Assembly: GCF_003253705.1 (NCBI RefSeq) | Contig: NZ_QKYU01000014.1 | Location: 81,948-145,947, forward strand | Source: Humitalea rosea | GTDB lineage: Bacteria; Pseudomonadota; Alphaproteobacteria; Acetobacterales; Acetobacteraceae | DNA: 64,000 nucleotides | Direction of reading: 5' to 3' | Shown: piece by piece, positions 7,930 through 17,359 of the stretch | How the letters are laid out: each line of letters begins with the position of its first letter | Position numbering within the stretch: position 1 is the stretch's first letter | The notes under the pieces: generated by a model | Seen by the model: only the letters and a program-made list of their open reading frames with translations | Databases searched by the model: none | What the model was told of the DNA's origin: nothing | Position numbers and translations under genes: made by a program

Positions 7930-9204
<1,275 letters not shown>

Positions 9205-9208
<4 letters not shown>

Positions 9209-9891
9209 GGCACCCGGCGGATGAGCATGAGTCCGCAGCCGAAGGCCCGCGCACGCCCCAAGCCGGCGCCGAGGGCCGCCAGGAAGGCCGCCGGGTCGGT
9301 CACGGTCAGGATGCCCTCGAAGTCGAGCACGCCGAAGCGCAGCGCGGCCGTACCCGGCCTCGTGATCCGGATGGTCTCGTAGCCATCCACAGCGACATCG
9401 CCTAGCAGGGCAAAGCCATGCGCGGCGCCTTGGCGGGCGAGCCAGGCACGGCCGGCCGCAAGCATCACATCGTGCCGCGCCGCCGCCCGGGCCTCGCCCG
9501 GCGGATGCTGCCGCAGCGCGTCCATCACCACATCATGGCGCTGTCCGCGTTTGCCGGGCGCCGTCTGCCGCGCGATCACCGGATTGGCGTGCAGCACGAA
9601 ACCCAGCCGATCCCCCACCCCAAGATTGGGCGCAAAGGGCTTGGTCTCCAGGTCGAAGATGTCGTTCAGTGGATTGGGGGGCCGCGAGGAGAGCGCCAGA
9701 AACTGTCCCGGCCGGTCCTGGCGCCACAGAAAGTCGCGCCGCCGGTCGGCGCCATCGGAAAACAGCGCCCAGACCAGCTGGTGGGCGGCCGCGGCCTGCG
9801 GGCCGGTCTCCTCGGGCACCAGCAGCCGGGCCAAAGCGGCAACCGGTGCCTCACGTCGCAGCCTGGCGCGAGAGAGGAACAGGCCGGTCAT
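9205..9891 (-). CDS. cas6e: Cas6e (CasE), crRNA-processing endoribonuclease
   Basis: 228 residues. Cas6e cuts the repeat hairpin to make 61-nt crRNAs and stays on the 3' stem-loop in Cascade. Seen: the family N-terminus (MTGLFLSRARL), H37 in AAHQLVWALF aligning with the catalytic H20 of E. coli CasE, the RRDFLWR motif just after it, and the C-terminal glycine-rich GLGRARAFGCGLMLIRR segment. A longer loop in the N-terminal third explains the extra length relative to E. coli (199). Overlaps cas5e and cas1 by 4 bp each. Confidence 0.94.
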
Positions 9892-10652
9892 GGCGCGGCG
9901 AGCTGCAGCACCAGCTCCTCACGAAGGTCGAACTGCCAGCACCGGCGGGATCGCGGCTGGTCACGGCGCAGCTCGATCCAGCGCCGGCGGCTGTCATCGG
10001 CCGGAATGGCGTCGGCGTCGCTCGCATCCAGCGTCACCACCGGCGCTGTGAGCCGCTCCGCAGGCAGGTCGCGCAGCCAACCGTCAAGCGCGCGCAGCCT
10101 GGCTTCCGGGCCAGCCTCATGGCGCTGCACCAGCGCTGCGGGCGCATCCGCCGCCGCGATCAGCTCCGGCGCCAGGGGCAGCCCCAGCGGGCAGGATTTG
10201 CGCCCGAGATAGGTGACGAAACCCGGGCAGCGCATCGCCTCGGCGATCTCGGCCAATGACCAGCGCGGTGCGGGGTCACGGGGCCACAAAGCGCCGAGAT
10301 GCCACGCCCCACTGCGATAGTCGCGACGCGAGAGCACGGTGTTCAACCCGGGCTGTGCCAGCTCCTCGGCACGGGTGGCGAAGCGCCGGCCCCGCGCGGC
10401 CGAAGGCATCTGCGCCGTGTGGTAATCGGCCAGCAGCCGCCCTGGCGCGTGGCACAGCAGCGCCAGCCCATAGCCGGTCGCGAGCGCGGCCTGGGCGGCA
10501 TCATCCTCCCGCTCCAAGCCAAGGCAGGCGCCGATCAGCCCGAGCACGGCGGAGCGGGCCGGGCGGTCCCAGCCGGAGCGCCTCTCGCCCACCGCGATCG
10601 CCCCGAAGGAGGCGATCGGCGCGACCAGAGCGAAGGTCAGATAGTCAGCCAT
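9888..10652 (-). CDS. cas5e: Cas5e (CasD), Cascade subunit
   Basis: 254 residues. Cas5e caps the crRNA 5' handle in Cascade and contacts Cse1. The N-terminal LTFALVAPIASFGAIAVGERR and SAVLGLIGACLG segments are typical of Cas5 proteins of this subtype (RAMP fold), as is the YRSGAWHLGALW stretch. Cas5e is normally non-catalytic. It starts 6 bp after cas7e and overlaps cas6e by 4 bp, within the tightly coupled Cascade operon. Confidence 0.94.
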   Translation of the reverse strand: MADYLTFALVAPIASFGAIAVGERRSGWDRPARSAVLGLIGACLGLEREDDAAQAALATGYGLALLCHAPGRLLADYHTAQMPSAARGRRFATRAEELAQPGLNTVLSRRDYRSGAWHLGALWPRDPAPRWSLAEIAEAMRCPGFVTYLGRKSCPLGLPLAPELIAAADAPAALVQRHEAGPEARLRALDGWLRDLPAERLTAPVVTLDASDADAIPADDSRRRWIELRRDQPRSRRCWQFDLREELVLQLAAP

Positions 10653-10658
10653 GCCGGG

Positions 10659-11699
10659 TCAGTCGCGGCAGAAGGCGATGACATCGGCGAGGCTGCCCTT
10701 GGCGCCGACATGCATGATCCGATCGTCGTCGCTGCCGGGGCCATAGGCGTCTTTGAGGGCACAGCGGAATTTGGTCAGCGCGGTAATCGACTGCGCCATC
10801 AGATCCTCCCCAGTGACCGGGCGCGCGAAGGCGCCAGCCAGGGTCCGCGGCTGCTGGTCGCCCCGCTCGGCCAGCAGATATTCAGCCCGGCCATGGGCGG
10901 CAAAGCTGTTCTGCTTGCCGCGAGGTGCGGCCGTTGCCGCGGCCTCCACCAGTGCTCCGACTGCGGTCGCCGCCAGGGCCGCATCGCCGCCGAGGTTTTT
11001 CAGCAGCAGCGCCCGATCCACGCAGAGGTAGAGGTAGAAGACGCCCGAGCCGAAGGCAGCCTCGCCCAAGAAGCCCGCCCCAGCATCCTCGGCCGAGGTC
11101 TTCAGGTCATCGACGGCGGTGTAGTAGTCATCCTCCACCGTCACGCGATGGGTGGTGATGGCATGGGCCACCTGCGCCGCCGCCTCGCGGTTGTAATCGG
11201 GGTCGGCGGCCAGCATCCGGCCGAACAGCGCGATGTCGGCCGCGGTATCGGCGGTCCGCAACAGCCCCGCCGCCTTGGCATCCAGCTTCTCTCCGGCAAG
11301 GAGGCGGTCGGCCAAGGCGAGGGCCGCGGTGCGTTCCTCCGGCGCGATGAAGGCAAGCTGTTCGATCCGCGTCGGCTCCTTGTCCTTGGCGTCCTTGATC
11401 TTGCCGAAGACGCCGGCGATGTCGCGCGCCGCCGCGATGGCCGCCTCCGCCACCATGCCGCCGGCGAGCAGGTGGTCGCGCACCACCTCCCCCATGCGCT
11501 GGGTGCGCTGACCCATATGGCCGGCCAAGGCAGTGGCGAAGATTGGCGAGGTGCGCCAGGCCCGTTTCAGCGCCTGGGAGGACAGCCGCAGCCGTGGCGC
11601 GCCGCCGACGATGGCGGTCTTCGGGCGGCCGGTGTCGTCGCGGTTCATATTGGCCGGCGGGAAGAAGGTCAGCAGGTGCAGTTGCAGGAAGCGGCTCAT
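10659..11699 (-). CDS. cas7e: Cas7e (CasC/Cse4), Cascade backbone subunit
   Basis: 346 residues, close to the E. coli length (363). Six copies form the crRNA-covering backbone of Cascade; the thumb of each subunit flips out every sixth crRNA base, relevant to the pseudo-spacer mismatches described at 14067-14157. The N-terminus MSRFLQLHLLTFFPPANMNRDDTGRPKTA, with SSQALKRAWRTS following, is diagnostic. The start at 11699 is chosen from that motif and from the ATGA overlap with cse2; longer in-frame upstream sequence is not family-like. Confidence 0.96.
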   Translation of the reverse strand: MSRFLQLHLLTFFPPANMNRDDTGRPKTAIVGGAPRLRLSSQALKRAWRTSPIFATALAGHMGQRTQRMGEVVRDHLLAGGMVAEAAIAAARDIAGVFGKIKDAKDKEPTRIEQLAFIAPEERTAALALADRLLAGEKLDAKAAGLLRTADTAADIALFGRMLAADPDYNREAAAQVAHAITTHRVTVEDDYYTAVDDLKTSAEDAGAGFLGEAAFGSGVFYLYLCVDRALLLKNLGGDAALAATAVGALVEAAATAAPRGKQNSFAAHGRAEYLLAERGDQQPRTLAGAFARPVTGEDLMAQSITALTKFRCALKDAYGPGSDDDRIMHVGAKGSLADVIAFCRD

Positions 11700-12250
11700 G
11701 CGGCGGTGTCCTTGGCGGGCGTGGCGGGTGGCGCCGGCTCGGCGTTCCAATAGGTGAAGATCCAGCGGCGCTTGGTCTCGGGGCCGCGATGCAGGTCGGG
11801 CCAATCGAACAGGGCACGGGAGAGATCGGCGACATTCGCCTCGCCTCCGGCCAGGGCGACCAGTCGGCGGAACACGATCAGGCATTCCTCGGGCTCGCTG
11901 GCTTCGAGCAGGCGGCGGAAACGCAAGGGCTTCAGCGTCGCGGTCTCTGGCTTGTCGGGGCTGTCCGGGCCGATCTGGCGGGCCAGCCGTTCGCCCGGCC
12001 GGTCGCGCCGGACATGGGCGAGCACGGCGGCGGCGAGCGCGATGGCGACAAGGTCCTTCTCATCCGTGGCGCCGCATTGGCGGAACAAGGCGATGGTGGC
12101 GGGTTCCTGCATCGCCTCGGCCAGGCTGGCGCAGCGTCGCAGCCGGGCCAGGGCGGCGCGATCGCCGGCGCGCTCGGAGGGGTTGGGCCGGCTCTGGTCC
12201 GGCACCAGCCCCCGCCACCAGCCGATGACGCCCTGTGGCGTGCGGATCAT
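11696..12250 (-). CDS. cse2: Cse2 (CasB), Cascade small subunit
   Basis: 184 residues, mostly helical and rich in Ala, Arg and Leu, as the family is. Two copies form the belly of Cascade and stabilise the R-loop. Supporting segments: GVIGWWRGL at the N-terminus, RAALARLRRC, and the C-terminal KRRWIFTYWNA. The ATG overlaps the cse1 stop by 4 bp and its own stop overlaps cas7e by 4 bp. The short low-complexity tail after FTYWNA is not conserved. Confidence 0.93.
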   Translation of the reverse strand: MIRTPQGVIGWWRGLVPDQSRPNPSERAGDRAALARLRRCASLAEAMQEPATIALFRQCGATDEKDLVAIALAAAVLAHVRRDRPGERLARQIGPDSPDKPETATLKPLRFRRLLEASEPEECLIVFRRLVALAGGEANVADLSRALFDWPDLHRGPETKRRWIFTYWNAEPAPPATPAKDTAA

Positions 12251-13833
12251 GCGCTCTTGCCCTTTGCGGTCTTCGGTTTGGCCTCGACGGCCGGCAGCCC
12301 GAGGGTCTGGAACAGCGCCGCGCCTTCCTTGCCATAGCCCAGCAGCGCGAAGACCAGGTTCCGCCGGGCGCGGCTGATACGCGGTGCGGCGCCGCCGTTT
12401 TCGGGCGTCATCGGCGCAGCCTCATCGAACAAGGCGAGCGCGATCCGGCGAAGCTGCGTGAGCCAGTTCAGCGGCGCGGCATCGGGCGGGGTCTGGAGGA
12501 GGGCGAAGAACAGCGGCTCGGTCTGCTCCCAGAGCCTTTCGCGCGGGGTCGAGAGCAGCTCGGCCTCCAGCTTCACCGTGGCCCCGGCGCTGAACAAGGC
12601 AAAGCGGATGGCGGAGCGCAGCAGCCCGGCGATCTGGTTGGCGGACACCACGAGCCTTGCCGCCAGCGCGTCCATCGCCTCCCGCGCGGCCTTGTCGGGG
12701 GCGGCGGGCAGCGGCATCTCGCTTTCGACAAAGGCGCGGGCCTTCATATTGTCCATGTCGTAGCCAGCGGCGAGCAGGCGGGCGCGGCCGCCTCCGGCGT
12801 CGATCTCGCGCGTGTCGCGCCAGCTGGCGATGGCCTTGGCCGGCAGTCGCAGCCCATCCGGGGTCGCCACCACCAGGCCCAGCCAGTGGCGATAGCCGAC
12901 ACCCCCCGGCTGTGGATGCAGCGGCAGGTATTCCGCGGCCGCCTTCAGCGCGTAATGTGGCGTCAGCGGATGCACCCGGCCCCAGCCAGCATAATTCGCG
13001 CCGCGCGGCCGCTGCCGCCAGGACCGCACCTGCACCGCATCGGCCGCACCGGTCAGGCCGCAGGGCTCGGTGGCAGAGCCCTCGGAGAAATCCAGCCGGA
13101 TGCGGCGCGGCATCCCCCACCATGCTTGCAGCGGATGCGCCGTCTCCGGCGTGACCACACGCGCGCCTTCGGAGGTCACGCTGGACGCCAGCCAAGGCAG
13201 GATGCGGGGCAGATCCTCGGGGCCGGGGATTTCGCCACGCGGCACATTGGCCCAAATCTGCTGCCACAGGCTCGGGCGGTCGCCAGGGCGGACCAGCGTG
13301 GTCATCGGCCCGCCGCCGCGCAAGCCGGTGCGATTGCCGGCGCCACCGGCAGGCGCCCAGCTCTGGAAGGTAAAGAGGGCCATGGCCGCGGCCGGCCGGC
13401 CGAGCGTCGCGATCCGTCCGCGATGGACCAGAAGATCGGTGTTCTGCCGTTGCGTGCTGGCGCCGGGCGCCTCGATCAGCAGGCGTTCGATGGGCTCCGC
13501 ATCCGAGACCAGATCCTCAAGATCCTGCAGGAAGCGAGGGCCCTGCCCGTCCAGGTTGAAGGCATGGGCCAGGGGCGCGAAGGCGGCGTCCAGCGCATCG
13601 GGATCGGGCGGCGCCTCCCACCCCTCGCGCCAAGCTCCATGGCCTTCGGGCGGGCAGGCGGTGGCGAGCAGGCCGATGAGGAATTCGAGACTGGCAACGC
13701 GGAAATCGGCGCGAGGCCAGTCGAGCGCAACGATCGGATCTGTGGTTTCGGTGATCTGGGCGGGGCGGATGGTGCTTCGCAGACCGCTGGCGCGCCGAAT
13801 GGGAAGCCAGGGGAAGGTGATGAGGTTGAACAA
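12247..13833 (-). CDS. cse1: Cse1/Cas8e (CasA), large PAM-reading Cascade subunit
   Basis: About 528 residues. Cse1 recognises the PAM and recruits Cas3. FNLITFPWLPIRRASG at the N-terminus is the family signature, and the internal VAPPxxG-like W-rich segments and FTFQSWAPAGGAGNRTGLRGGGPMTTLV fit Cse1. I prefer the TTG at 13833: it puts the family motif at residue 2 and has GAGG about 9 nt upstream. The upstream in-frame ATG at 13881 would add 16 unconserved residues, has GGGAG touching it with no spacing, and lies inside a perfect 12-bp inverted repeat. First gene of the Cascade operon, separated from cas3 by about 330 bp that holds the presumed operon promoter and the crRNA-like element. Confidence 0.9.
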   Translation of the reverse strand: MFNLITFPWLPIRRASGLRSTIRPAQITETTDPIVALDWPRADFRVASLEFLIGLLATACPPEGHGAWREGWEAPPDPDALDAAFAPLAHAFNLDGQGPRFLQDLEDLVSDAEPIERLLIEAPGASTQRQNTDLLVHRGRIATLGRPAAAMALFTFQSWAPAGGAGNRTGLRGGGPMTTLVRPGDRPSLWQQIWANVPRGEIPGPEDLPRILPWLASSVTSEGARVVTPETAHPLQAWWGMPRRIRLDFSEGSATEPCGLTGAADAVQVRSWRQRPRGANYAGWGRVHPLTPHYALKAAAEYLPLHPQPGGVGYRHWLGLVVATPDGLRLPAKAIASWRDTREIDAGGGRARLLAAGYDMDNMKARAFVESEMPLPAAPDKAAREAMDALAARLVVSANQIAGLLRSAIRFALFSAGATVKLEAELLSTPRERLWEQTEPLFFALLQTPPDAAPLNWLTQLRRIALALFDEAAPMTPENGGAAPRISRARRNLVFALLGYGKEGAALFQTLGLPAVEAKPKTAKGKSA

Positions 13834-13878: not shown

Positions 13879-13913
13879 CATCTCCCAGGTGCCGTTTGGT
13901 TACCTGGGAGATG
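13879..13913. promoter_or_regulatory. Perfect 12-bp inverted repeat upstream of cse1
   Basis: CATCTCCCAGGT (13879-13890) and ACCTGGGAGATG (13902-13913) form a perfect 12-bp inverted repeat with an 11-nt centre. It covers the upstream candidate ATG of cse1 and lies 45 bp before the preferred TTG start. There is no T-run, so a terminator is unlikely. It could be a protein operator in the 5' leader or an mRNA hairpin affecting translation. Confidence 0.6.
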
Positions 13914-13987
13914 CGTGAGCAGGAGGCGATCTCCCGATCAACGTCTTGAGCGTCGCGCTAGCTGCACGCGGAATCTCCTCCTCTAAA

Positions 13988-14003: not shown

Positions 14004-14032
14004 GGGCCGACGGGATTCCCCCCCGTCGGCCC
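14004..14032. promoter_or_regulatory. Strong GC hairpin in the cse1 5' leader
   Basis: An 11-bp perfect inverted repeat, GGGCCGACGGG (14004-14014) and CCCGTCGGCCC (14022-14032), with a 7-nt loop. It would be transcribed as part of the cse1 leader if the promoter near 14061 is right. No U-tract follows on either strand. It may stabilise the transcript, act as an attenuator, or be a protein site. Confidence 0.5.
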
Positions 14033-14037
14033 AACTT

Positions 14038-14066
14038 CCGTAGCATTATCGAAAGTTCCCGGTCAA
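14038..14066 (-). promoter_or_regulatory. Candidate promoter of the cse1-cas2 operon
   Basis: On the minus strand TTGACC (plus 14061-14066) is a good -35 hexamer; a 17-bp spacer leads only to a weak -10 (CTACGG). Alternatively GATAAT (plus 14045-14050) is a strong -10 whose weak -35 would lie at 14068-14073, inside the protospacer described next. Either way the promoter abuts or overlaps the stretch matched by the crRNA-like element. Confidence 0.5.
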
Positions 14067-14101
14067 CGAGATTCTCTTGCCACACCTCCACGTTGGACCT
14101 T
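14067..14101 (-). promoter_or_regulatory. AAG-flanked target of the crRNA-like element at the cas promoter
   Basis: Read on the minus strand, AAG at 14101-14099 is followed from 14098 by a 32-nt stretch. It matches the pseudo-spacer of the adjacent mini-array (14157-14126) at 19 of the first 23 positions, with mismatches at 6, 10, 12 and 18. Position 24 is also mismatched, and beyond it only position 28 matches. AAG is the classical type I-E PAM, on the correct side. In type I-E crRNA-DNA hybrids every sixth base is flipped out and need not pair, so three of the four mismatches in the matched part cost nothing. The 3' end adjoins the TTGACC -35 box. Confidence 0.8.
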
Positions 14102-14184
14102 AATCCCCGCGAAGCGGGGAACCGAAAGAAGAACCTTGCAACACCACAACGGTGGACCGGTTCATCCCGCCGAGGCAGGCACGC
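14097..14184 (-). ncRNA. CreR-like crRNA: degenerate two-repeat mini-array between cas3 and cse1
   Basis: Upstream pseudo-repeat (14184-14158, minus) keeps the complete array handle ATGAACCG. Its stem is rewritten, but 14166-14171 and 14174-14179 can still pair (CCUGCC with GGCGGG, one G-U). The downstream pseudo-repeat (14125-14097) keeps the stem CCCCGC/GCGGGG exactly, with the loop shortened from ACAC to TTC. The two are one array period apart: the ATC of the handle region recurs at 14164 and 14103, 61 bp. Between them lies a 32-nt pseudo-spacer (14157-14126). The cas3 stop TGA is the TGA inside the handle. The layout matches cas-regulating crRNA-like RNAs (CreR) known from other type I systems, which direct Cascade to the cas promoter. 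Its own promoter was not identified; it may come from the cas3 transcript. Confidence 0.85.
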
Positions 14185-16846
14185 ACAAACTCAAACCAAC
14201 GGATTCCTGATAGAATATTCGGACCGCAGTGCCCGATTCCGTGCGTCCCTCAATCATATAGGCGTCGCGGCTCGCCGTCATCACCGCCAGCACCACGCGC
14301 TCGGACTCCCGCTCCCACCGTCCCCAGCCTGCCTTCGCCGCCTCCACCGCCGCTTCCAGGCCGGCAGGCACCGGGCAGGCCGCGATCCGGTGCCGCGCGA
14401 CCAAAACCTCCGACAGCGCCCAGGCCCTGGCGGGATCGGCGTCGGCGGCATAGGGCACCACCGCGCCATCACGCAGCAGCGCCAGCCGCAGCGTGACCTG
14501 CGGGCGGTCCTCCAGCCGCGTCGGCGTCTGGGTTTCCGGCTCCCACAGCCCGGCGTTGCGATCGTAGCATTCGGTGAAGACCAGCAGGTTCTGCCGGGCG
14601 ATGCCCGTGGCCGCCTGCGCCTTGCCCAACGCTTGGCCAGCGGCATCGGCAAGGGCTGCCGGGATCGCGCCAGGCGCCTGCGTGTCGAAAGCGGTTTCGA
14701 TCAGCGGGCGCATGTCCTGCGGCGTCGTGATGGCGCCACGGCCGAACACTGCCCGTGCGCTGCGCCAAAGCAGGGCCGGATCGCGATAGACGGCAGCGGT
14801 TCCCGGCTGCGTTGCCTTGATCCAATCCGCCGCAGGCTCGTCAACCGGTTCTGGCGAGATGATCAGCAATTCCGGCCCGGAGATCGGCCGCGCCCCCCGT
14901 GCGTGACGCCACAAGCGTCCAGCGCGCTGGATCAAAAGATCGGCTGGCGCCAGATCCGTCACCAGAAGATCGAAGTCCAGATCCAGGCTTTGCTCGATCA
15001 CCTGCGTCGCGATCAGCACGCCGGCCCGGGTGGCACCGTCGCTGCCGCGGCCGAAGCGGCGCAGTACCTCCGCCTCGATGTCCAGCCGGTCGGCCATGGC
15101 GAAACGTGCATGGAACAGCAGCGGCGTCACGCCCTGCGCGCGCACAGCAGCCGCGGCCGCAATCGCGTCATCGACGGTGTTCCGCACCCAGGCCACCGCT
15201 GCCCCCGCTTTGGCCGCCATCAGGACGCGCTCCAGCGCCGCTGCCGCATCGGGCAGGCGAGAGACGACGACACGCCGCGCCAGCCCCGCGCGAACGTCGC
15301 ATGGCTGCTCCACCACACCATCCGCCCCAACCAGAGTCGCCAGCGGATAGGCGGTCTGCGCGAGCGGCAACGCCCTGGCCTGCAGCCCCTTGCGGAAGGC
15401 CGTCACCAACTGCTGCCGGACATGCTTCGGCAAGGTCGCCGAGAGCAGGATGACGGAGCCGCCGAGTGCGGCGTGGAACTCCAGCAAGGTGAGTATCTCG
15501 CGCCGCATATAGGCATCGAAGGCATGCACCTCATCGACGACCAACACCTTGCCGGCCAAGCCCTGCAAGCGAAGGGCCGCGTGGCGCACCGGCAGCACCG
15601 CCAGCAAAGCCTGGTCCAACGTGCCGACGCCGACCTGGGCGAGCAGGGCGCGACGGCGGTCCTCAGCCAGCCAGGCGGCGCAATGCGCCTCGGCCGGTTC
15701 ATCGGCCGGATCGGCGGGGCTGTTGCGCGCTGGAGGGGCTTCGGCGGGAATGCTGTTTATGAAGCGCGGATCCAGCGTGGCACGCGCATGGGCCAGGACG
15801 AGAGAGGGGTGGGCCTCTGCGGCGAAGAGGCCGCGATAGGCCTGACCCAGGCGCCCGAACATCGCATTCGCCGTGGCCATCGTCGGCAGCGCCAGGAACA
15901 GGCCGGTGGCGCGGCCTTCGGCGAGCAGCCGATGCGCCAGGATGACGGCGGCTTCGGTCTTGCCACTGCCGGTAAGGTCCTCGATCACCGCCATCACCGG
16001 GCCTGCCGGAAGAGTGACGGTTTCGGCCCAGGCCTGGATGGGCGAGGGCACCTGGATCGCCGGGAACAGCCGCCCCATGCCGGTGAAGCGCGAGGGCCGT
16101 GCGGAGGCCATGCCCGCGGCCGCCAAGGCGGAGGCCGCTTGTGGCAGCGCATGGTCCCACCAATAGGCCGCGGGGTCCGCTACGGCCGCCGGCGCCACAT
16201 ACGGGAACCACGCCTGTCGCGAGCCGATCCAGTCGGCCAGCGTCACCACCCCCGCAAGTTGCCAGCCCAGCCGAGCGATGTCGTGGTCGGAACCAGGCCG
16301 TGGGAGTGCGGGCGGCGAGAAGAGCCGCCGCATGGCATCGATGAAATCCACCGCGGCATCCAGACAGCCGGTGCAAATTTCGGAGGACCCTGGCGTAGTC
16401 AGCGGGTCGGCCGGTGGGCGGCCATGGTGGCCGGCAAGGGCACGCAAAAGCGGCCCGCGGCTGCCATCATCCCAGGCGTAGCGTCCCGCGATGCGAGGCG
16501 GAAGAACGTCGTCCAACGTGGACCCGAGCGTCGTCCGCAGCATCTGCAACCCCAGCACGTCGTGCTTCGGGCCGGAGGGCACTCCATTGGGCGGCAGCGG
16601 GCCAAGTGCGGCTGCGGGCCAAGCGGCGGGCGCCATGCCCTGAAACACTCGCGAGAATTTCCCGATGTCATGAACCGCGGTCAGGAACCCGAGGGTCTGG
16701 CCGGCGAGCGTGAAATGCGATGACCTGGGCAGCAGCATCGCAACCGCGGCGACATCAAGGGCATGGGCGACCAGCGGGTGCATGGCTGGTAGGCCATCGG
16801 CCTCCGGCCGGGCTTTGCCCCAGAACAGCGAGGTTTCGCTTCGCAA
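14162..16846 (-). CDS. cas3: Cas3 helicase-nuclease, type I-E
   Basis: 894 residues, like E. coli Cas3 (888). It is recruited by target-bound Cascade and nicks, unwinds and degrades DNA. Domains: HD nuclease (about 1-230) with HPLVAHALDVA, HD at 59-60 in AVHDIGKFS and GHHGRPP; SF2 helicase from about 280 with Walker A LTGSGKTEAA (291-300), DEVH box at 438-441, SAT at 469-471, and motif VI QRAGRLWRH. The start is a TTG giving MRSETSLFWGKA, where FWGKA aligns with the E. coli N-terminus. The stop codon lies inside the pseudo-repeat of the crRNA-like element, so the last codons of cas3 also encode that hairpin. It is separated from cse1 and so probably expressed separately. Confidence 0.96.
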   Translation of the reverse strand: MRSETSLFWGKARPEADGLPAMHPLVAHALDVAAVAMLLPRSSHFTLAGQTLGFLTAVHDIGKFSRVFQGMAPAAWPAAALGPLPPNGVPSGPKHDVLGLQMLRTTLGSTLDDVLPPRIAGRYAWDDGSRGPLLRALAGHHGRPPADPLTTPGSSEICTGCLDAAVDFIDAMRRLFSPPALPRPGSDHDIARLGWQLAGVVTLADWIGSRQAWFPYVAPAAVADPAAYWWDHALPQAASALAAAGMASARPSRFTGMGRLFPAIQVPSPIQAWAETVTLPAGPVMAVIEDLTGSGKTEAAVILAHRLLAEGRATGLFLALPTMATANAMFGRLGQAYRGLFAAEAHPSLVLAHARATLDPRFINSIPAEAPPARNSPADPADEPAEAHCAAWLAEDRRRALLAQVGVGTLDQALLAVLPVRHAALRLQGLAGKVLVVDEVHAFDAYMRREILTLLEFHAALGGSVILLSATLPKHVRQQLVTAFRKGLQARALPLAQTAYPLATLVGADGVVEQPCDVRAGLARRVVVSRLPDAAAALERVLMAAKAGAAVAWVRNTVDDAIAAAAAVRAQGVTPLLFHARFAMADRLDIEAEVLRRFGRGSDGATRAGVLIATQVIEQSLDLDFDLLVTDLAPADLLIQRAGRLWRHARGARPISGPELLIISPEPVDEPAADWIKATQPGTAAVYRDPALLWRSARAVFGRGAITTPQDMRPLIETAFDTQAPGAIPAALADAAGQALGKAQAATGIARQNLLVFTECYDRNAGLWEPETQTPTRLEDRPQVTLRLALLRDGAVVPYAADADPARAWALSEVLVARHRIAACPVPAGLEAAVEAAKAGWGRWERESERVVLAVMTASRDAYMIEGRTESGTAVRIFYQESVGLSLCVPASAG

Positions 16847-17282: not shown

Positions 17283-17359
17283 TGGTAGCGGCGGGCGGAC
17301 TTGAACCGCCGACCCCGGCATTATGAGTGCCGTGCTCTAACCAGCTGAGCTACACCGCC
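17283..17359 (-). tRNA. tRNA-Met (CAT), elongator
   Basis: 77 nt with encoded CCA. Acceptor strand GGCGGTG pairs with CGCCGCT (G-U at the first pair), discriminator A. The anticodon loop CTCATAA carries CAT; T-stem GGCGG/CCGCC encloses TTCAAGT. The sequence around the anticodon (GAGCAC, CACTCATAATG, GGGGTC) parallels the E. coli elongator tRNA-Met, not the initiator (which has a mismatched first pair) and not clearly tRNA-Ile2. It lies between the IS remnant and mnmA. Confidence 0.93.

Follow-up and report, generated by a model that had tools for sequence, protein, structure and literature searches.

The type I-E CRISPR-Cas locus of Humitalea rosea carries a mini-array beside cas3 that probably serves a type I-E CreTA module as its antitoxin guide (CreA). 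This guide would keep a predicted toxin RNA (CreT) silent and probably, through read-through, the cas8e operon as well. As read from its sequence, the locus holds a spacer, a PAM, a partial target, repeat-like flanks with an intact handle and a hairpin, a Shine-Dalgarno motif (SD) and a mini-ORF with rare codons, and the arrangement recurs in relatives with spacer and target changed together. Repression of the cas genes by their own Cascade is likely a companion of CreTA rather than the sole function of the guide.

The type I-E locus and its guide unit

We refer to the whole 64,000-nucleotide stretch that was analyzed as the window. It comes from a draft genome of 4.97 Mb in 73 contigs (family Acetobacteraceae) and has, on its minus strand, the complete gene set of a type I-E system (cas3, cas8e, cse2, cas7, cas5, cas6e, cas1 and cas2, named by PADLOC profiles), followed by an array of 61-nt units. 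A pattern search for the repeat core found 93 occurrences genome-wide, all on the contig of the window. Three matches lie at 742–884 and are followed by ~1.46 kb without any until the main run begins at 2349; the array may be interrupted between 884 and 2349, or its repeats may be altered there. Just upstream of cas3 lies a tRNA-Met gene (17286–17359, minus strand), a possible island boundary. The guide unit and its target are located between the end of cas3 (14162) and cas8e:

14162–16846, minus strand: cas3, type I-E, with its 3' end inside psi-R1
14158–14186, minus strand: psi-R1, degenerate upstream repeat with an intact 5' handle and a shorter hairpin
14126–14157, minus strand: pseudo-spacer (putative creA guide, 32 nt), starting GTCCACCGTTGTGGTGTTGCAAGG
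14099–14125, minus strand: psi-R2, downstream repeat with intact hairpin arms, GTTCCCCGC TTC GCGGGGA
14099–14101, minus strand: AAG PAM, directly 5' of the target
14067–14098, minus strand: protospacer-like target, starting GTCCAACGTGGAGGTGTGGCAAGA, matching the spacer at 19 of the first 23 positions
12247–13833, minus strand: cas8e (cse1), with a likely TTG start at 13833
7930–12250, minus strand: cse2, cas7, cas5, cas6e, cas1 and cas2, same system as cas8e, profile-named

The cas8e frame has its first ATG at 13881, and a start codon equivalent to the TTG at 13833 is used in several relatives. The handle of psi-R1, GGGATGAACCG, is intact (14168–14158, minus strand), and the cas3 stop codon (14164–14162) sits within this repeat. 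The 3' end of psi-R2 is lost and now reads ...ATTAAG. The two repeats differ from one another and from the repeat core that recurs 93 times, so the unit does not have the near-identical repeats of an ordinary CRISPR array. It is a crRNA-like unit, next to type I cas genes, whose repeats are degenerate, which is the arrangement of CreTA; a mini-CRISPR guide with a limited match at what appears to be a cas promoter is also the arrangement of a CreR.

The original prediction paired the spacer with the site running down from 14098 beside an AAG, and this pairing was confirmed on a minus-strand reading. Spacer and target mismatch at positions 6, 10, 12, 18 and 24, and most positions past 24 differ. 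The seed (positions 1–5 and 7–11) matches at 9 of 10 positions, position 10 being off, and the match at 13–17 and 19–23 is longer than in most of the 22 loci described below. In the window the target directly abuts the end of psi-R2, and it ends at 14067, where TTGACC (14066–14061) immediately follows.

The match is not explained by chance. We made 20,000 dinucleotide shuffles of the 345-nt intergenic stretch and recorded the best match over 23 positions beside AAG or ATG. The best shuffle scored 16, against 19 for the true pair; since none of the 20,000 shuffles reached 19 of 23 with a PAM, a chance match was ruled out, as the proposed scoring of shuffled intergenic DNA for AAG-flanked matches had been meant to decide. 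When no PAM was demanded, the best shuffle scored 18. A genome search with the site pattern, allowing up to 3 mismatches, gave 10 matches: the site (0 mismatches), the spacer (2) and eight others (3 each), with 2 for a reversed-pattern control. A second target of the guide with fewer than 3 mismatches was thus not found in the 4.97-Mb draft genome besides site and spacer. Among 100 relatives, the intergenic stretch as a whole matched over its length in its own genome only, and two others share 22–25 bases with it. Rfam was searched for a known RNA, and the two weak matches were both far below gathering scores.

Mini-arrays recur across Cas8e loci with different sequences

To the 80 best of 384 Cas8e loci from named genomes we added those of the family, in which 59 of 397 genomes have Cas8e (58 loci, one each except for G141, a weak 40-residue match). 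The 139 Cas8e-bearing sequences, including the window, comprised 117 loci after removal of 22 duplicates. A detector of handle plus hairpin found a unit in 27 of the 117 loci on the cas strand and in 8 on the other strand, compared with 6 of 585 shuffles. Five of the 27 (L033, L037, L045, L051 and L055) were set aside as pieces of ordinary arrays, which left 22 mini-arrays. Although both strands were searched, the best site lay downstream on the same strand in all 22, with the PAM AAG in 18, ATG in 2, AAA in 1 and AAT in 1. Thus the search for the same arrangement in other type I-E loci, proposed with the original prediction, bore it out: a crRNA-like unit with a PAM-flanked partial target, in the window beside a -35-like TTGACC, recurs with spacer and target changed together.

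Core scores, taken over 17 positions with every sixth omitted, ranged from 12 to 17 for the loci's own pairs, with 14 of 22 scoring at least 14. For 462 swapped spacer-locus pairs the scores ranged from 9 to 14; 67 scored at least 12, two scored 14, and 10 sites had AAG or ATG. Four of the 22 own pairs score exactly 12, a level also reached by the 67 swapped pairs. L019 (core 12 of 17, PAM AAT) was retained in all counts of 22, and its match may be a decayed or chance best site.

A second detector, which requires handle, PAM and seed match, found 22 forward and 6 reverse-oriented units among the 117 loci and 1 in 468 shuffles. Its forward set consists of 16 of the 22 mini-arrays plus L051, L053, L074, L110, L111 and L115. 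The forward hit in L074 and the reverse hit in L010 were judged chance or echoes. L051, regained in this way, is counted in the classes below; L074, as a chance hit, and L110, whose target is on the other strand, are excluded. In L110, L111 and L115, just 22–23 nt separate the handle from the GTTCC of psi-R2, versus 27–40 nt in the 22 mini-arrays. Five loci (L069, L071, L072, L079 and L084) have reverse-oriented modules with PAM-flanked targets and a guide facing away from cas8e; they are filed mostly as Gamma- or Deltaproteobacteria, and their layout resembles that of Citrobacter rodentium. The L012 contig is filed under Solirubrobacterales (Actinomycetota), yet its Cas8e is Acetobacteraceae-like, with 65% identity to that of the window, and the contig is probably misbinned.

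The 22 mini-arrays vary in where the frame upstream of them ends (this is cas3 in the window and was assumed to be cas3 in the other loci): its stop codon falls within the psi-R1 handle in 9, 12–32 nt before the handle end in another 9, and elsewhere in 4. Absence of any conserved match in close relatives had been named as a finding that would count against the prediction, and here the outcome is divided: the two nearest Cas8e relatives of the window, L009 and L011, gave no module by either detector, and other relatives carry it.

The retained positions trace a Cascade R-loop

Type I-E Cascade flips out every sixth base. In the window, mismatches at every sixth position (6, 12, 18 and 24, plus the odd 10) are a single case, and it is over the 22 loci that this part of the prediction becomes firm. 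Mismatches number 1, 0, 2, 1 and 0 at positions 1–5 and 16 at position 6; 0, 1, 3, 3 and 4 at positions 7–11 and 20 at position 12; and 1, 4, 7, 6 and 6 at positions 13–17 and 16 at position 18. Thereafter there are 12–18 per position, where random bases would mismatch in 16.5 of 22. Positions 6, 12 and 18 taken together are mismatched in 52 of 66 cases (79%), and the other five phases in 20–26%. When another phase was omitted from the site search, 15–21 of the 22 sites were recovered, and the omitted positions again mismatched in 20–26% of cases versus 79% for every sixth. On these alignments, the pattern of near-random positions 6, 12 and 18 onward, with 1–5, 7–11 and mostly 13–17 kept, is the footprint of a Cascade R-loop. 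The match of the window is truncated, as the original prediction has it, and would be expected to permit Cascade to bind without forming a full R-loop. At position 12, the 20 mismatched loci rather exceed the 16.5 of 22 expected if it were free, and mismatch there might be selected.

In Halobacterium hubeiense, changes at positions 6 or 12 were reported as harmless and changes at the others of the first 11 positions broke repression (PMC8501985), in agreement with the footprint of the 22 loci. The comparison offers a natural readout, independent of laboratory mutagenesis, of the guide positions that are kept for repression (1–5, 7–11 and mostly 13–17).

Candidate promoters

Three promoter-like elements bear on how guide and target may be transcribed:

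14061–14066, minus strand: -35-like TTGACC, starting at protospacer position 33
14038–14043, minus strand: putative weak -10 CTACGG at 17-nt spacing, missed by the consensus scan
14253–14281, minus strand: promoter-like ATGACG-17-TATGAT inside cas3, a consensus match only and a candidate creA promoter

The consensus scan found 2 sites over both strands, where shuffles gave a mean of 0.1. Either read-through of cas3 or the promoter-like site within it may give rise to the creA transcript. TTGAC occurs at protospacer positions 19–61 in 11 of the 23 loci scanned, including loci with a short distance to cas8e. From the -35 element of the window to the likely cas8e start there are some 230 nt. Between the mini-ORF and cas8e the scan gave no promoter-like site on the minus strand, and we infer that the proposed promoter serves cas8e by read-through; the same scan misses the proposed promoter itself, which has a poor -10.

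A predicted toxin RNA between target and cas8e

The stretch between the target and cas8e contains the following elements:

14004–14032, minus strand: 5' hairpin of the predicted CreT RNA (12-bp stem, predicted fold)
13977–13982, minus strand: Shine-Dalgarno AGGAGG, ahead of the mini-ORF
13938–13967, minus strand: mini-ORF of 9 codons, GTG CAG CTA GCG CGA CGC TCA AGA CGT TGA, with rare codons CTA, TCA and AGA
13879–13913, minus strand: 3' hairpin of the predicted CreT RNA (predicted fold, no U-run after it)

AGA, CTA and TCA are the 3rd, 5th and 9th rarest codons in the window (13,254 codons from 37 GC3-filtered ORFs). In frame, cas8e has none of AGA, CTA, TTA, ATA or TCA and has two AGG. Among the 44 tRNA matches of the draft genome, tRNA-Arg(UCU), tRNA-Leu(UAG) and tRNA-Ser(UGA) are represented by one each. 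The mini-ORF thus has three rare codons; it begins with GTG and has no adjacent pair from the rare set tested below. Its SD can pair with a downstream CCUCCU stretch (13911–13982, minus strand, predicted fold) and is predicted to be partly paired, with 33–41% unpaired.

The distance from target to cas8e divides 26 loci into 4 short (L015, 63 nt; L093, 89; L026, 110; L010, 139) and 22 long (235–551 nt), the latter being 18 of the 22 mini-arrays plus L051, L053, L111 and L115. By eye we recognized the same CreT plan of hairpin, SD, rare-codon mini-ORF and second hairpin in 12 of the 22 long loci, the window among them; the plan is shared and the sequence is not. In these 12 the first hairpin lies 20–37 nt past the -35-like hexamer (11 measured) and the mini-ORF starts 114–196 nt before cas8e. 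Compared with 40 shuffles each, the 5' hairpin surpasses them all in 10 of the 12 and the 3' hairpin likewise in 10; in the window, both predicted folds do so. SD accessibility across the 12 ranges from 21 to 80% unpaired (full stretch), and with so wide a spread we claim no shared fold that blocks the SD.

We complemented the choice by eye with a blind test that took the best SD-led ORF of each of the 22 long loci over 400 shuffle rounds; its rare set (AGA, AGG, ATA, TTA and CTA) was fixed after the sequences had been seen. An SD-led ORF was found in 17 of 22 loci (shuffle mean 7.4), with an SD score of at least 6 in 11 (mean 1.6, maximum 7). Rare codons made up 19 of 141 codons, compared with a shuffle mean of 4.1 of 61 and a maximum of 14, and an adjacent rare pair occurred in 6 loci (mean 0.24, maximum 2). 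Part of the rare-codon excess arises because SD-led ORFs are more numerous than in shuffles: per codon it is about twofold (13% versus 7%), and the excess of pairs is about tenfold per ORF. AGA AGA occurs in the mini-ORFs of L012, L094 and L101, and also in L111, where the blind rule chose another ORF. The blind test found no SD-led ORF in 5 of the 22 long loci (L019, L051, L115, L122 and L131). The plan seen in 12 of 22 loci, together with the blind excess of SDs and rare pairs, points to a CreT-type RNA toxin, and hence to CreTA.

Proposed mechanism

In the mechanism that we propose, the mini-array transcript would be processed by Cas6e and loaded into Cascade, which would then bind the AAG-flanked site at the predicted promoter without cutting. 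Binding would silence the predicted CreT RNA (about 150 nt, 14032–13879) and, by read-through from the same promoter, probably the cas8e operon too. CreT would be toxic by tying up the scarce tRNAs for AGA, CTA and TCA. If Cascade were lost or blocked, by mutation or an anti-CRISPR, the promoter would open, and CreT would slow or kill the cell as cas transcription rises. A promoter shared through read-through would unite autorepression of the CreR type and addiction of the CreTA type in a single device.

Comparison with known CreTA and CreR systems

The CreTA modules of Haloarcula hispanica and H. hubeiense (type I-B) resemble the predicted module of the window in the degenerate-repeat creA (with two repeats in H. 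hubeiense) and the PAM, in pairing at positions 1–5 and 7–11 with 6 and 12 free, and in a rare-codon mini-ORF, a stable stem-loop and a position beside or within the cas operon; H. hispanica has a strong SD too (PMC8501985). In that report, H. hispanica CreT needs its SD, start codon, rare codons and stem-loop, and the haloarchaeal toxin is a mini-ORF with AGA-AGA or AUA-AUA plus a stem-loop. The predicted module of the window differs in being bacterial and type I-E, in its extra 5' hairpin, in the cas3 stop within psi-R1 and in a mini-ORF lacking a tandem AGA or AUA pair.

The type I-E system of C. rodentium has been shown to contain, between cas3 and casA, a toxin that Cascade represses, along with a putative creA; its location, partial target and type I-E PAM at the toxin promoter correspond to what is predicted for the window (PMC12055562). 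There, however, the putative creA lies on the opposite strand, and the toxin depends on translation of a 96-bp ORF that has no rare codons, whereas the creA of the window would be collinear and its mini-ORF is short and rich in rare codons. The type I-F CreTA of Acinetobacter resembles the predicted module of the window in its site between cas3 and the first Cascade gene and in a toxin RNA with SD and mini-ORF; it differs in type, in its divergent orientation and in having a toxin hairpin around the start codon instead of rare codons (PMC10097628).

CreRs have been reported for types I-B, I-E and V-A (PMC13131331) and have, as the window appears to have, a mini-CRISPR guide with a limited match to a cas promoter (PMC13131331, PMC12737573, PMC12948488). 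As defined in these reports, a CreR involves no toxin; the window has a CreT-like stretch between predicted promoter and cas8e, and four relatives have no room for one. Type I-E examples of a CreR and of a toxin repressed by Cascade are thus already published (PMC13131331, PMC12055562). Among the literature matches listed, none describes such a module in Acetobacteraceae, a paper on Acetobacter prophages only citing creT-creA (PMC9379143); the Science 2021 and Cell Host Microbe 2023 papers may list more loci.

Alternative explanations

The original prediction took the target for the cas promoter only. Read as a plain CreR, the mini-array RNA would guide Cascade to the promoter of the cas operon, and the DNA from there to cas8e would encode a normal untranslated leader and no toxin. 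The guide, the target and a likely cas autorepression stand, and CreRs are reported for type I-E (PMC13131331); the targets of L010, L015, L026 and L093, 63–139 nt from cas8e, leave too little space for the CreT plan, and the mini-ORF of the window has no tandem rare pair. What this leaves unexplained is that a CreT-like stretch lies between the target and cas8e, that the CreT plan is seen by eye in 12 of 22 loci with distant targets, and that blind SD and rare-pair counts, as well as both hairpins of the window, exceed shuffles. We consider a CreR without toxin unlikely. It is very improbable that the stretch attenuates cas8e as a leader peptide, with ribosomes stalling at the rare codons and the creA match merely tuning initiation. 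Rare codons followed by a hairpin would suit attenuation, but in the window no U-run follows the 3' hairpin, and about 45 nt separate its end from the likely cas8e start; inspection by eye showed no conserved alternative pairing, and the 5' hairpin would be unexplained.

The unit might also be a decayed CRISPR array, a leftover repeat-spacer-repeat whose likeness to the target stems from a duplicated repeat-spacer unit, and in the window the target does begin right at the end of psi-R2. In L022, L029 and L031, however, the target lies some 30 nt or more beyond psi-R2. Spacer and target differ together in 3213 of 3490 spacer differences at positions 1–17 outside multiples of six (92%), versus 457 of 719 (64%) at the multiples and 891 of 1199 (74%) at 19–23, for sites that were chosen for similarity, and matches are retained solely where Cascade is expected to read bases. 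With the distant targets, the swapped-pair scores and the co-differing pairs, we rejected the decayed array, which has scarcely any probability left. Several observations count against CreTA itself: the mini-ORF of the window has no tandem rare pair and a GTG start, its SD is predicted to be partly paired, seed position 10 is mismatched (single changes in the seed stretch 7–11 broke repression in H. hubeiense; PMC8501985), the -10 is poor, 5 of the 22 long loci have no SD-led ORF, and the nearest relatives, L009 and L011, showed no module.

Evolution and significance of the predicted module

In a tree of 62 Cas8e proteins, neither the loci with a CreT insert nor those without one form a single clade. 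L019 and L020 are the neighbors of L101, which has an open mini-ORF containing AGA AGA. Of the mini-ORF in L020, a start codon and then a stop are left, and its SD is weaker, with guide and target matching at 17 of 17 core positions; here the toxin was likely lost and the regulator kept. L111 (AGA AGA) is the sister of L026, which keeps guide and target with no room for a toxin. Both pairs look like CreTA turning into CreR, and the four relatives without a CreT insert (L010, L015, L026 and L093) look like plain CreRs.

We tentatively suggest, as a serious possibility, that in Acetobacteraceae type I-E systems Cascade represses one promoter from which both its own operon and a tRNA-starving toxin RNA are expressed, that the guide was carved from the 3' end of cas3, whose stop lies in its repeat, and that CreTA and CreR are two states of one module, with one passing into the other as the toxin decays or is deleted. 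If the single-promoter reading is true, loss of Cascade would trigger poison and re-supply at once. If the CreTA reading is true, loss of Cascade would likely harm the cell; the module would represent a further family of CRISPR addiction modules, one of Alphaproteobacteria in which rare-codon RNA toxins guard type I-E systems, and would include sister species where toxin loss seems to convert an addiction module into a regulator.
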